64,000 nt of DNA from Synechococcus sp. RCC307 (GTDB taxonomy: Bacteria; Cyanobacteriota; Cyanobacteriia; PCC-6307; Cyanobiaceae): contig CT978603.1 of the NCBI GenBank assembly GCA_000063525.1, positions 739,105 to 803,104 of the forward strand. Reading direction: 5' to 3'. The stretch's first letter is position 1, and the number at the start of each line of letters is the position of its first letter. Of this stretch, positions 27,744 through 31,074 are shown piece after piece. A model generated the notes under the pieces. That model was not told the DNA's origin, searched no databases, and worked only from the letters and a program-made list of their open reading frames with translations. The position numbers and the translations under genes were made by a program.

Positions 27744-29612
27744 CTACTCAGGCAAGGCACTGAGTTCAAGCCAGCGATCTTCGGCCCGACTGATCTGCTC
27801 GCAGAGTTCAGCCAGCTCTTGGGTCAGGGCTTCGAGTCTGTTGAAATCAGCTCCGGCCAGCTTGGACTCCAGCTCTGCTTTCTGCTCTTCCAATTGGGGC
27901 AGCTTGCTGTCGAGATCATTGAGTTCACGCTGCTCTTTGTAACTGCGGCGCTTGGGTTGCTCCCGTTTCGGCTTGGCTGCGGCCGGTTTGGTTTTGGTGG
28001 CAACAGGGGTTTGTTTGGCTGTTTGTTGTTCCAGCCATTCGCTGTAGTTGCCCTCAAAGCGCTCCAGCTGGCCACCGCTTTGAAAGCAGAACAGGCGATC
28101 CACTGTGCGATCAAGGAAATAACGGTCGTGAGAGACGATCACCACGCAGCCACGAAAATCTTCGATGTAGTCCTCCAAGACGGCAAGGGTTTGCACATCG
28201 AGATCATTGGTTGGCTCATCGAGCAGCAGCACATTGGGTGCTGCCATCAACAAGCGGCATAGATGCAGCCGCCTGCGTTCACCGCCTGAGAGCTTGGCCA
28301 CGGGGCTGTGTTGTTGGGCTGCTGGAAACAAGAAGCGCTCCAGCAGCTGCGAGGCCGTGAGGCTGTTGCCCTGTCCCAGATCAATGCGTTCGGCCACGTC
28401 TTGGATGACCTCAATCACCTTGAGCTCGGGTTTTAGGTCTTCGGAGTGCTGATCAAAGCGGCCAATCACCACCGTTTCGCCGCGCACCACCGAACCAGCA
28501 TCGGGTTGTTGGCGGCCGCTGATGAGATCCAGCAGCGTGGATTTCCCTATCCCGTTGGGGCCGATGAAGCCAACCCGATCTTCTGGTGAGAAGGAATAGG
28601 TGAAGTCGTTGATCAAACAGCGATCGCCGAGCTTGCGCTGTAGGTGTTCAACATCGATCACCGTTTTGCCAAGGCGCCGGCTGGCGCTTTCCATGGCCAC
28701 GTTTTGTTTGGCTGGCTTGAAGCTTTGCTCCTGCATCTGCTCGATGCGTTGAATGCGGGCTTTTTGCTTTGTGCTGCGTGCTTTGGGGCCGCGTTTGAGC
28801 CATTCGATTTCACGGCGCATCACCGAGCGGTAGGCCCGTTGGCGGGCTGCATCAGCAACCTCTTCCTCGTCTTTCTTTTTCAAATAGGCGCCGTAGTTGC
28901 CCGGGTAGCGGCGCAGTTGGCCACCGTCCAACTCGATGATCGTGTCGGTGACACGCTCCAGGAAATAGCGGTCGTGGGTGATTAAGACCAAAGCCCCTTT
29001 GAAGCGCTGCAGAAACCCCTGAAGCCATTCGGTGGCGAGGGCATCGAGGTGGTTGGTGGGCTCATCGAGCAGGAGTCCATCGGGCTCGGCCACCAGCGCC
29101 GATGCCAAGGCCAGGCGTTTGCGGTAGCCCCCAGAGAGCTCTCCCACCTTGCGGCTGTGATCACAGATGCCCAGACGGCTGAGCACTTCTTGGCATTGGC
29201 GCTCAAGTTCCCAGGCTTTGGCCTCATCCATGCGGTTGCTGATCTGGCTGAGCTCGCCAAGCAGCGCAGAGTCATTCGGGCTCTGCTCCAGCTCTTGGAT
29301 GAGGCCTTCGTAGCGCTCAACCAGCTGCATCTTTTCGCCGCAGTCAGCAAACACCTGCTCCAGCACCGTGCGCTCAGGATCGAGGCTGGGGTTTTGATCG
29401 ACGTAAATCACGCGGTGGCGCGGATTGATTTGAACGCGTCCGTCGCCAACAGGCTCCAGCCCTGCCATCACCCGAAGCAGGGTGGATTTGCCTGACCCGT
29501 TGATGCCAATGAGCCCCAGTCGATCTTGAGGACCGACCTCAAGATCAACTTGATCGAGCAGGGTTTTAATCCCAAAGTCTTTGCTGACCTGCTGCAGGCT
29601 GATCAGGGTGAT
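27744..29612 (-). CDS. ABC-F family ATPase (Uup-like) with non-canonical start
   Basis: Two ABC ATPase domains with no membrane part: NBD1 Walker A GINGSGKST (coded at about 29499-29475) and signature LSGGYRKRL; NBD2 Walker A GPNGIGKST and signature LSGGERRRL; a charged linker between them (LKRGPKARSTKQKARIQRIEQ) and a C-terminal coiled coil with KREQPKRRSYKEQRELNDLD. ABC-F proteins act on ribosomes or, for Uup, on branched DNA. The first ATG/GTG in frame (29471) would delete Walker A, so the gene must begin upstream. Between the in-frame TGA and Walker A there is no ATG, GTG or TTG; ATC at 29612 or CTG at 29606 are the only likely starts, giving about 622 residues. Confidence 0.85.
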   Translation of the reverse strand: MTLISLQQVSKDFGIKTLLDQVDLEVGPQDRLGLIGINGSGKSTLLRVMAGLEPVGDGRVQINPRHRVIYVDQNPSLDPERTVLEQVFADCGEKMQLVERYEGLIQELEQSPNDSALLGELSQISNRMDEAKAWELERQCQEVLSRLGICDHSRKVGELSGGYRKRLALASALVAEPDGLLLDEPTNHLDALATEWLQGFLQRFKGALVLITHDRYFLERVTDTIIELDGGQLRRYPGNYGAYLKKKDEEEVADAARQRAYRSVMRREIEWLKRGPKARSTKQKARIQRIEQMQEQSFKPAKQNVAMESASRRLGKTVIDVEHLQRKLGDRCLINDFTYSFSPEDRVGFIGPNGIGKSTLLDLISGRQQPDAGSVVRGETVVIGRFDQHSEDLKPELKVIEVIQDVAERIDLGQGNSLTASQLLERFLFPAAQQHSPVAKLSGGERRRLHLCRLLMAAPNVLLLDEPTNDLDVQTLAVLEDYIEDFRGCVVIVSHDRYFLDRTVDRLFCFQSGGQLERFEGNYSEWLEQQTAKQTPVATKTKPAAAKPKREQPKRRSYKEQRELNDLDSKLPQLEEQKAELESKLAGADFNRLEALTQELAELCEQISRAEDRWLELSALPE

Positions 29613-29709: not shown

Positions 29710-30612
29710 ATGGGCCTCTGGCAAACCGCTTGGGGACTAGCCCTGGCTGCATTGGTGCAGTTGGAAGGTGCCCCGCCGCCTCGGCCACTGATGGAAGGAT
29801 CCAGCCGCGCGGCCTATGCCATCCCAAGTGATGGGGATACCCCCATCCTCCAGTTTCAAACGAGCACGGGCGACCCGGTGCGCCTGCTCATCGACACCGG
29901 CGCCTCGCGCTCGATGGTCAGCCAAGCGCTGATTGCACGGCTGCAATTGACGACACAACCGTTAAACGGTGGCAACTTCGCTTTGGCTGGGGCCGGCAGT
30001 GATTGCCCCACTGACCCGCCTCGCCAGGCTGTCCTGCCCCCCCTGCAACTGGGTGGGCTCAAGATCCGCGAGTTGGCGGTGTTGGTGATGCCCAAGTTGG
30101 GCGTTCCCCCTGGGACTGATGGCGTTTTGGGCGCATCGGCATTGCGTCAGCTGCCGATGTTGATCGATCCCAAACAACAACAAGTGCGTTTTGATCAACA
30201 GTTATCGATTCAGTCGGCGCCAGCCGATGCCCTCAGGCTTCCCTTGCAATGGCGGGATCATGTGCCCCTTGTGCAGGTTTTCGATCAGAGTAGAAAAAGT
30301 ACCTTGGCCCTGCTTGACACCGGGGCAGAAGCTGTGTTTGTCGGTGTGCCTTTGGCTCAGCGATTAACCCCACAGTCGCCGCCGTCTGGAGTGGAGATCC
30401 AAGGCTTTTGTGGTTCTGAATTGGCCGTCGAACGTGTGTTTTCTGGTTTGCGCATTGGGACTGTTCATCTGGAGGGATCCCCAGCGATCGTGACGCGAAA
30501 CAGGATTCTCAAGGATTTAAATGTGGAGGCCATCATTGGCCAACCACTGCTCAAAAATCGTCGCCAGCTTTGGCTTCTCAATCGGCCGGATCCAGTTTTG
30601 TTGCTCTGGTGA
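29710..30612 (+). CDS. Two-lobed retropepsin-like aspartic protease
   Basis: 300 residues with a hydrophobic N-terminus that may be a signal peptide or anchor. Two catalytic triads are present: LLIDTGASRSMVS (DTGA at 62-65) and LALLDTGAEAVFVG (DTGA at 203-206). Each is followed by a hydrophobic Gly psi-loop motif, TDGVLGASALRQLP in lobe 1 and VEAIIGQPLLKN in lobe 2. Most bacterial retropepsin-like domains are single and dimerise; here one chain carries both halves, as in pepsins. Likely an envelope protease. Substrate unknown. It lies alone between the ABC-F gene and cyAbrB. Confidence 0.8.
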   Translation: MGLWQTAWGLALAALVQLEGAPPPRPLMEGSSRAAYAIPSDGDTPILQFQTSTGDPVRLLIDTGASRSMVSQALIARLQLTTQPLNGGNFALAGAGSDCPTDPPRQAVLPPLQLGGLKIRELAVLVMPKLGVPPGTDGVLGASALRQLPMLIDPKQQQVRFDQQLSIQSAPADALRLPLQWRDHVPLVQVFDQSRKSTLALLDTGAEAVFVGVPLAQRLTPQSPPSGVEIQGFCGSELAVERVFSGLRIGTVHLEGSPAIVTRNRILKDLNVEAIIGQPLLKNRRQLWLLNRPDPVLLLW

Positions 30613-30711
30613 ATCGAAGGTTGAGAATTTGATGCAGCAAATTTCTTCTAAGGGCTTTCCAAAAGTGCAGGCCAATGGTTACATTGCCGTTGTGCATTAA
30701 TTCTGTTGAGC
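30613..30711 (+). promoter_or_regulatory. AT-rich leader upstream of the cyAbrB gene
   Basis: A 99-base intergenic region, AT-richer than its surroundings, precedes cyAbrB. TACATT (30678-30683 region) could be a -10 element, but no convincing -35 is spaced correctly. No hairpin or operator repeat was recognised. Confidence 0.3.
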
Positions 30712-31074
30712 ATGCTCACTGGTAACGACCTGCTCGCCAAAGTTCGGGAACTAGGCGACGCTGGCAAATCGGAGATCGTTCGTGAGTGCGGTTACGTCTC
30801 CACCAAGAAAGACGGCGGCGAGCGCCTGAACTTCACCGCTTTCTACGAAGCCCTGCTTGATGCCAAGGGTGTTGAAATTGGTGGTGGTTCTGTTGGCAAA
30901 GGTGGGCGCAAGCTCAGCTATGTCGCCACTGTTCAGGGCAATGGCAATCTGCTGATTGGTAAGGCTTACACCGCTTTGCTGAACCTCAACCCTGGCGATG
31001 AGTTCGAAATCAAGCTGGGCCGAAAGCAGATCCGTTTGGTTCCTGTGGGTGCTGAAGACGAAGGCGAAGAGTGA
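30712..31074 (+). CDS. cyAbrB-type transcriptional regulator
   Basis: 120 residues from ATG 30712. Cyanobacterial AbrB-like protein whose DNA-binding AbrB fold lies at the C-terminus (LSYVATVQGNGNLLIGKAYT, then LNPGDEFEIKLGRKQIRLV), opposite to Bacillus AbrB. The N-terminus (LTGNDLLAKVRELGDAGKSE, then CGYVSTKKDGGERLNFTAF) is highly conserved. Family members regulate carbon and nitrogen genes, including inorganic-carbon uptake in Synechocystis, so a link to the carbon locus here is possible but untested. Confidence 0.93.
   Translation: MLTGNDLLAKVRELGDAGKSEIVRECGYVSTKKDGGERLNFTAFYEALLDAKGVEIGGGSVGKGGRKLSYVATVQGNGNLLIGKAYTALLNLNPGDEFEIKLGRKQIRLVPVGAEDEGEE

Follow-up and report, generated by a model that had tools for sequence, protein, structure and literature searches.

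Paired flap cysteines, kept or lost together among the relatives of a two-lobed retropepsin-like protein of Synechococcus sp. RCC307, suggest a chemical latch between its lids

The window analysed is a stretch of 64,000 nucleotides from Synechococcus sp. RCC307 (contig CT978603.1, positions 739,105 to 803,104 of the forward strand). It contains an ORF that starts with an ATG codon, is preceded by the Shine-Dalgarno-like sequence AAAGGA and codes for a putative bilobed aspartic peptidase, the features of which are listed in Table 1. An ORF for an ABC-F-type ATPase lies upstream in the divergent orientation (27744-29471), and a gene for an AbrB-like regulator is located just 3' of the peptidase gene (30706-31074; PF14250, E 5e-28). 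When 21 loci of 12-16 kb were compared, no ORF cluster was found in more than four of them, the gene itself and antisense shadows aside, and the gene context thus gives no function.

Table 1. The peptidase gene and its parts (positions in the window)
Feature	Position	Strand	Basis
Whole gene, 300 aa single-chain bilobed retropepsin-like aspartic peptidase (putative)	29710..30612	+	ORF list, Pfam, six-frame search
Hydrophobic N terminus, residues 1-18; may act as an anchor or a short signal peptide	29710..29763	+	Sequence
Lobe 1, residues 44-166	29839..30207	+	PF13650 stretch 54-143; lobe comparison
Lobe 1 DTGA, residues 62-65, predicted catalytic Asp62	29893..29904	+	D62 in 84/84 members
Cys99, probable lobe 1 flap segment	30004..30006	+	Present or absent together with Cys234, never alone
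Lobe 1 psi-loop GVLG, residues 138-141	30121..30132	+	G141 in 84/84
Lobe 2, residues 175-292	30232..30585	+	Second PF13650 match; lobe comparison
Lobe 2 DTGA, residues 203-206, predicted catalytic Asp203	30316..30327	+	D203 in 84/84
Cys234, probable lobe 2 flap segment (G-F-C-G)	30409..30411	+	Profile alignments; member alignment
Lobe 2 psi-loop AIIG, residues 274-277	30529..30540	+	G277 in 84/84

The Pfam family PF13650 (Asp_protease_2, clan AA) matched the ORF in two stretches with an E value of 1.3e-19; the score of 71.1 bits is well over the curated cut-off, 24.3. When the entire genome, a single contig of 2,224,914 bases, was searched in six frames, this gave two PF13650 matches above the cut-off, both inside this ORF, and no other match at E <= 0.01. 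The clan AA motifs, D-T/S-G and a hydrophobic-hydrophobic-Gly psi-loop, are present in each lobe, and a profile comparison of one half with the other, made with the first 60 members (53 after filtering), gave a probability of 98.8% and an E value of 7.1e-17. The retropepsin family A2 model (PF00077, RVP) remained below its cut-off (19.2 versus 20.7 bits), as did TIGR02281, clan_AA_DTGA (24.5 versus 57.95 bits); family A2 proteins are moreover single lobes working as homodimers, whereas here two lobes lie in one chain.

The first-pass annotation had described two DTGA motifs and two psi-loop glycines in one 300-residue chain, in a pepsin-like layout built from retropepsin-type halves. The motifs and the retropepsin-type halves, each with its own DTGA and psi-loop Gly, were borne out, and the second DTGA probably occupies an active-site position, as PF13650 and PDB profile alignments place it on the catalytic DTGA or DSGA of HTLV protease, DDI1 and PDB entry 9iy9. 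The statement that most such proteins have a single lobe also holds: among 117 genomes of the phylum, 86 ORFs (rows grouped by hand) accounted for the 93 PF13650 matches found at E <= 1e-5, and 7 of these ORFs had two, a lower bound as a weak second lobe below the threshold would count as one. Pepsin has one flap. The comparison with pepsin was not sustained, since both lobes here have a flap-type segment with a conserved Cys and the search at E <= 10 gave four families, none of them PF00026 (pepsin, family A1), although the HMMER filters may drop weak matches. The protein also says little about how pseudo-dimeric proteases arise, which had been given as its interest: in a tree of 46 lobes from 23 of the 60 members and 15 other domains, N lobes (support 11) and C lobes (support 80) already form one group each, and this support is too weak to decide whether the fusion arose by internal duplication.

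Relatives of the protein are patchily distributed. With the protein as query, 12 of 60 related genomes matched at E <= 0.001, some in part only, and the gene was found in three of the six genomes of the window's own genus, the other three being 82-92% complete. When 292 genomes of the phylum were searched with a ten-sequence profile, 67 matched at E <= 1e-5; in nine genomes the matches cover both lobes at E < 1e-90, and in the remainder they are short or weak and mostly correspond to single-lobe proteins or other bilobed ones. Two lobes were also seen in three low-scoring proteins among the phylum matches listed. With the same profile, 36 of the 388 genomes sampled from the class matched at a limit of 1e-30 and 37 of the 300 from the family at a limit of 1e-20, and relatives were further found in 16 of 217 genomes of the family of G131 and in 13 of the 29 from the order to which G474 belongs; these phylum, class, family and order samples overlap. 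No match was detected in 50,697 phage records, and a relative was present in one of 72,556 plasmid records. A viral origin was considered and abandoned, as none of 130 pattern stretches in the viral_contigs set was confirmed as a relative by the profile. Three proteins from other families of the phylum (L025, L026 and L028) belong to a different bilobed retropepsin-like group, with D-S/T-G-S/A-N motifs and without a Cys in a GFCG context.

As further families and the remaining hits joined, the set of full-length cyanobacterial members grew from 60 to 79 and then to 84. D62, G64, G141, D203 and G277 are kept in all 84, and G205 in 78. In the other six (L051, L052, L053, L054, L056 and L058) G205 is replaced by Ala, so that lobe 2 reads DTAA, and lobe 1 stays DTGA; such a replacement at the catalytic Gly is unusual. 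The gene is under purifying selection: compared with two relatives of the same genus, the NG86 dN/dS values were 0.050/0.301 and 0.059/0.472, and third codon positions held 59 of 90 and 80 of 119 differences. We consider a bilobed peptidase with a shared catalytic dyad very likely.

The bilobed layout by itself is ordinary and of a known kind. PDB entry 9iy9 ('Exported protein'), a solved bacterial single chain of 420 aa, likewise has two retropepsin-like stretches, the first with DTGA and the second with DTGN, and is the best PDB match of both lobes of the window protein, the similarity being weak; no paper naming this entry was found among CC-licensed PMC papers. Similarly, the alphaproteobacterial protein WP_207415312.1 from Roseomonas haemaphysalidis plasmid p546-2 is bilobed with two PF13650 stretches, and 28% of the residues are identical across 88% of the query. 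Two DTGA lobes with one active site and two flaps are also found in retroviral protease homodimers and tethered HIV-1 protease dimers, but the natural retroviral enzymes are homodimers and the tethered single chains are man-made. Bacterial pepsin homologues of the shewasin type also combine two lobes with two catalytic Asp, but belong to family A1, are predicted to be intracellular and, in the available text, are described as lacking disulfides (PMC2761423).

More unusual than the layout is a feature absent from the first-pass annotation. The protease domain contains exactly two cysteines: C99 in one putative flap and C234 at the equivalent place of the other. This pair is what is novel relative to the known bilobed retropepsin-like chains, the layout being already known: in 9iy9 neither C99 nor C234 is aligned with a Cys, and WP_207415312.1 has GISG as its lobe 2 flap and no Cys at the aligned place of its lobe 1 flap. 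In a search of CC-licensed PMC papers, no report of paired flap cysteines in a two-lobed retropepsin was found, and no flap-to-flap disulfide in retroviral or tethered proteases turned up in the literature search.

C99 and C234 are both present in 69 of the 84 full-length members and both absent from 15, and no member has one alone. The two residues are therefore kept or lost as a unit, as is expected of a disulfide-bonded protein. The earlier sets gave 59 members with both and one with neither (first 60 distinct members), and 65 with both, 14 with neither and none with one (79 members). Over aligned positions 44 to 292 the 69 paired members have no further Cys; among the 15 without the pair, 13 have no Cys at all in this interval and two have one at position 44. 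The sequences behind the profile have both cysteines, which could bias the search towards such members; those without the pair nevertheless came up easily and scored far over the limits.

On a maximum likelihood tree built without the two Cys columns, the state of the pair changes four times, each change affecting both residues (5-95% range 4-4 over 200 bootstrap trees), and the well-supported branches alone force at least three of these changes. With the 79-member set, before the last five members were added, there were three. The groups without the pair are ten relatives of G131 at the level of the Nostoc family, L136 with L137, L134 with L135, and L144. When the tree is rooted at its midpoint, the pair is found on both sides of the root, which makes losses the simpler reading. 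That the two cysteines act as a pair is thus well supported.

Nine fragmentary or broken places were left out of these counts. L133, L138 and L139 are fragments, the last of them not aligned; L148 is cut by a contig end and L150 has a frame-broken C lobe near one, and C99 is present in both; L151 and L152 come from two contig ends of one genome, with C99 in one and C234 in the other. L007 and L154 are the same place and have both cysteines, the front of lobe 1 missing. No intact member with a single Cys is among these rows, L150 and L153 being impossible to score. In G028, the complete genome that holds L007/L154, the front of lobe 1 with its DTG is out of the reading frame, and this copy looks broken or wrongly sequenced. 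L153 (G622) comprises a C lobe without an N lobe, reads GFGG instead of GFCG and is perhaps a decaying gene; other members of its genus, G580 and G640, have the Cys pair.

Several alignments suggest that the cysteines lie in the flaps, probably at the tip. In the lobe-lobe profile alignment, C99 falls on C234, and profiles made separately for each lobe align C99 and C234 with one and the same Pro in lobe 1 of 9iy9. In five printed alignments of the C lobe, C234 falls on the flap Gly in two (human DDI1 and 7d66) and on a Pro in one (9iy9); in the two yeast Ddi1 entries it is aligned with an Ile some residues before Gly-Val-Gly, and HTLV protease has a one-residue gap opposite it, at the flap. 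As these printed alignments disagree, an exact register with the HIV flap residues was given up. Flap tips of retroviral proteases read Gly-X-Gly-Gly, which the GFGG, GLGG or GLLG of lobe 2 in members without the cysteines resembles. An AlphaFold model of the window protein, made with only two relatives (L013 and L014; 89-90% identical), had a mean pLDDT of 27.5 and a pTM of 0.18.

Lids whose cysteines are kept or lost only jointly suggest a chemical latch between them. The two lobes, for which the sequence predicts a pseudo-dimer fold, would fold onto each other like two retroviral protease subunits, pooling Asp62 and Asp203 into one catalytic dyad and contributing one flap each, and a Cys99-Cys234 disulfide would span the pseudo-twofold axis above the active site. 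In the oxidised state the flaps would be barred from swinging wide, and the latched enzyme would be inactive or confined to thin, extended or threaded peptides until reduction unlatched it. A separation of 5 A between C-alpha atoms suits a disulfide, being in the typical range. In the available text of PMC10892587, the I50-I50' C-alpha distance of HIV-1 protease is given as about 5 A in the semi-open, 8.5 A in the closed and 13-16 A in the wide open form. A disulfide between equivalent places would fit the semi-open distance and keep the flaps from opening wide, from which the latch reading follows.

We consider the C99-C234 disulfide itself likely. That the protein is an exported single-chain aspartic peptidase whose flaps are joined by this bond over the active site, with restricted opening, is somewhat less certain but still probable. 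Redox gating of the activity is put forward tentatively. Equally conjectural is the broader proposal that the flap tips of a natural pseudo-dimeric retropepsin are disulfide-joined, so that oxidation locks the enzyme and reduction opens it, several cyanobacterial lineages having lost this latch and possessing what would be the enzyme in unlatched form. A locked flap should hinder catalysis unless the lock is reversible, a point against the latch. Members without the cysteines keep both Asp, and the pair is therefore not needed for the role of the enzyme there.

The disulfide might instead be purely structural, holding together the lobes of an exported, always-active enzyme that substrates enter from the side or by threading, without any gating. 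Paired retention fits any disulfide. According to the available text of PMC12239564, the bacterial retropepsins RloA (secreted) and RimB (cytosolic) share the fold, and RloA has a structural disulfide elsewhere in it that cytosolic orthologues lack; these proteins are, however, single-lobed homodimers, and the RloA bond does not connect two flaps but runs from the strand that follows the flap to the C-terminal tail. A tether between the lobes of a single chain could sit anywhere, yet this pair lies in what are probably the mobile flaps, and flap opening is described for HIV-1 protease as needed before substrate processing (PMC10892587, available text). A purely structural bond is rather unlikely in our view.

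We regard as improbable that the cysteines stay reduced and jointly bind a metal or haem, or undergo thiol modification, and in this way block or tune the active site. Joint loss would also fit a site with two ligands, and cysteine oxidation regulates several retroviral proteases, but the regulatory cysteines are described at the dimer interface, the word 'flap' being absent from the available text of that review (PMC9598996), and in all 69 paired members the domain lacks both an additional conserved Cys and an evident third ligand. Least credible of all is a catalytically dead bilobed protein whose fold serves for binding, since the DTAA members, which would suit it, are outweighed by the otherwise invariant motif residues and by the purifying selection on the gene.

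Flap opening is a much-studied motion of retroviral proteases, relevant to both rate and drugs. If the latch reading is true, an enzyme with tied flaps, together with relatives in which the tie disappeared on three or more occasions, would constitute a natural experiment on flap opening in catalysis, and an example of a redox-controlled aspartic peptidase in an oxygen-producing cell.

A location outside the cytoplasm is suggested by the hydrophobic segment and by the relatives. The N terminus of the window protein is short and has no basic residue ahead of the hydrophobic stretch, so that its export is something we infer; the N termini of the relatives are longer. VKOR-type enzymes make disulfides in cyanobacteria, and a VKOR-type protein is encoded in the genome (E 2.5e-24). 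Many members from outside the picocyanobacteria have an N-terminal extension (for example L009 692-1072) in which two Cys, about 23 residues apart, occur around -72 and -49 relative to the domain; the lineage of the window protein does not have this extension; the extension had no Pfam match in the one member scanned. The -49 Cys is kept in all of the first 14 members lacking the flap cysteines, with a partner at -66 to -72 in 13 of them, and L144, the fifteenth, has two upstream Cys with a spacing of 23. The flap pair was thus lost while another pair stayed. An extra Cys pair is located beyond the domain in L094 and L095.
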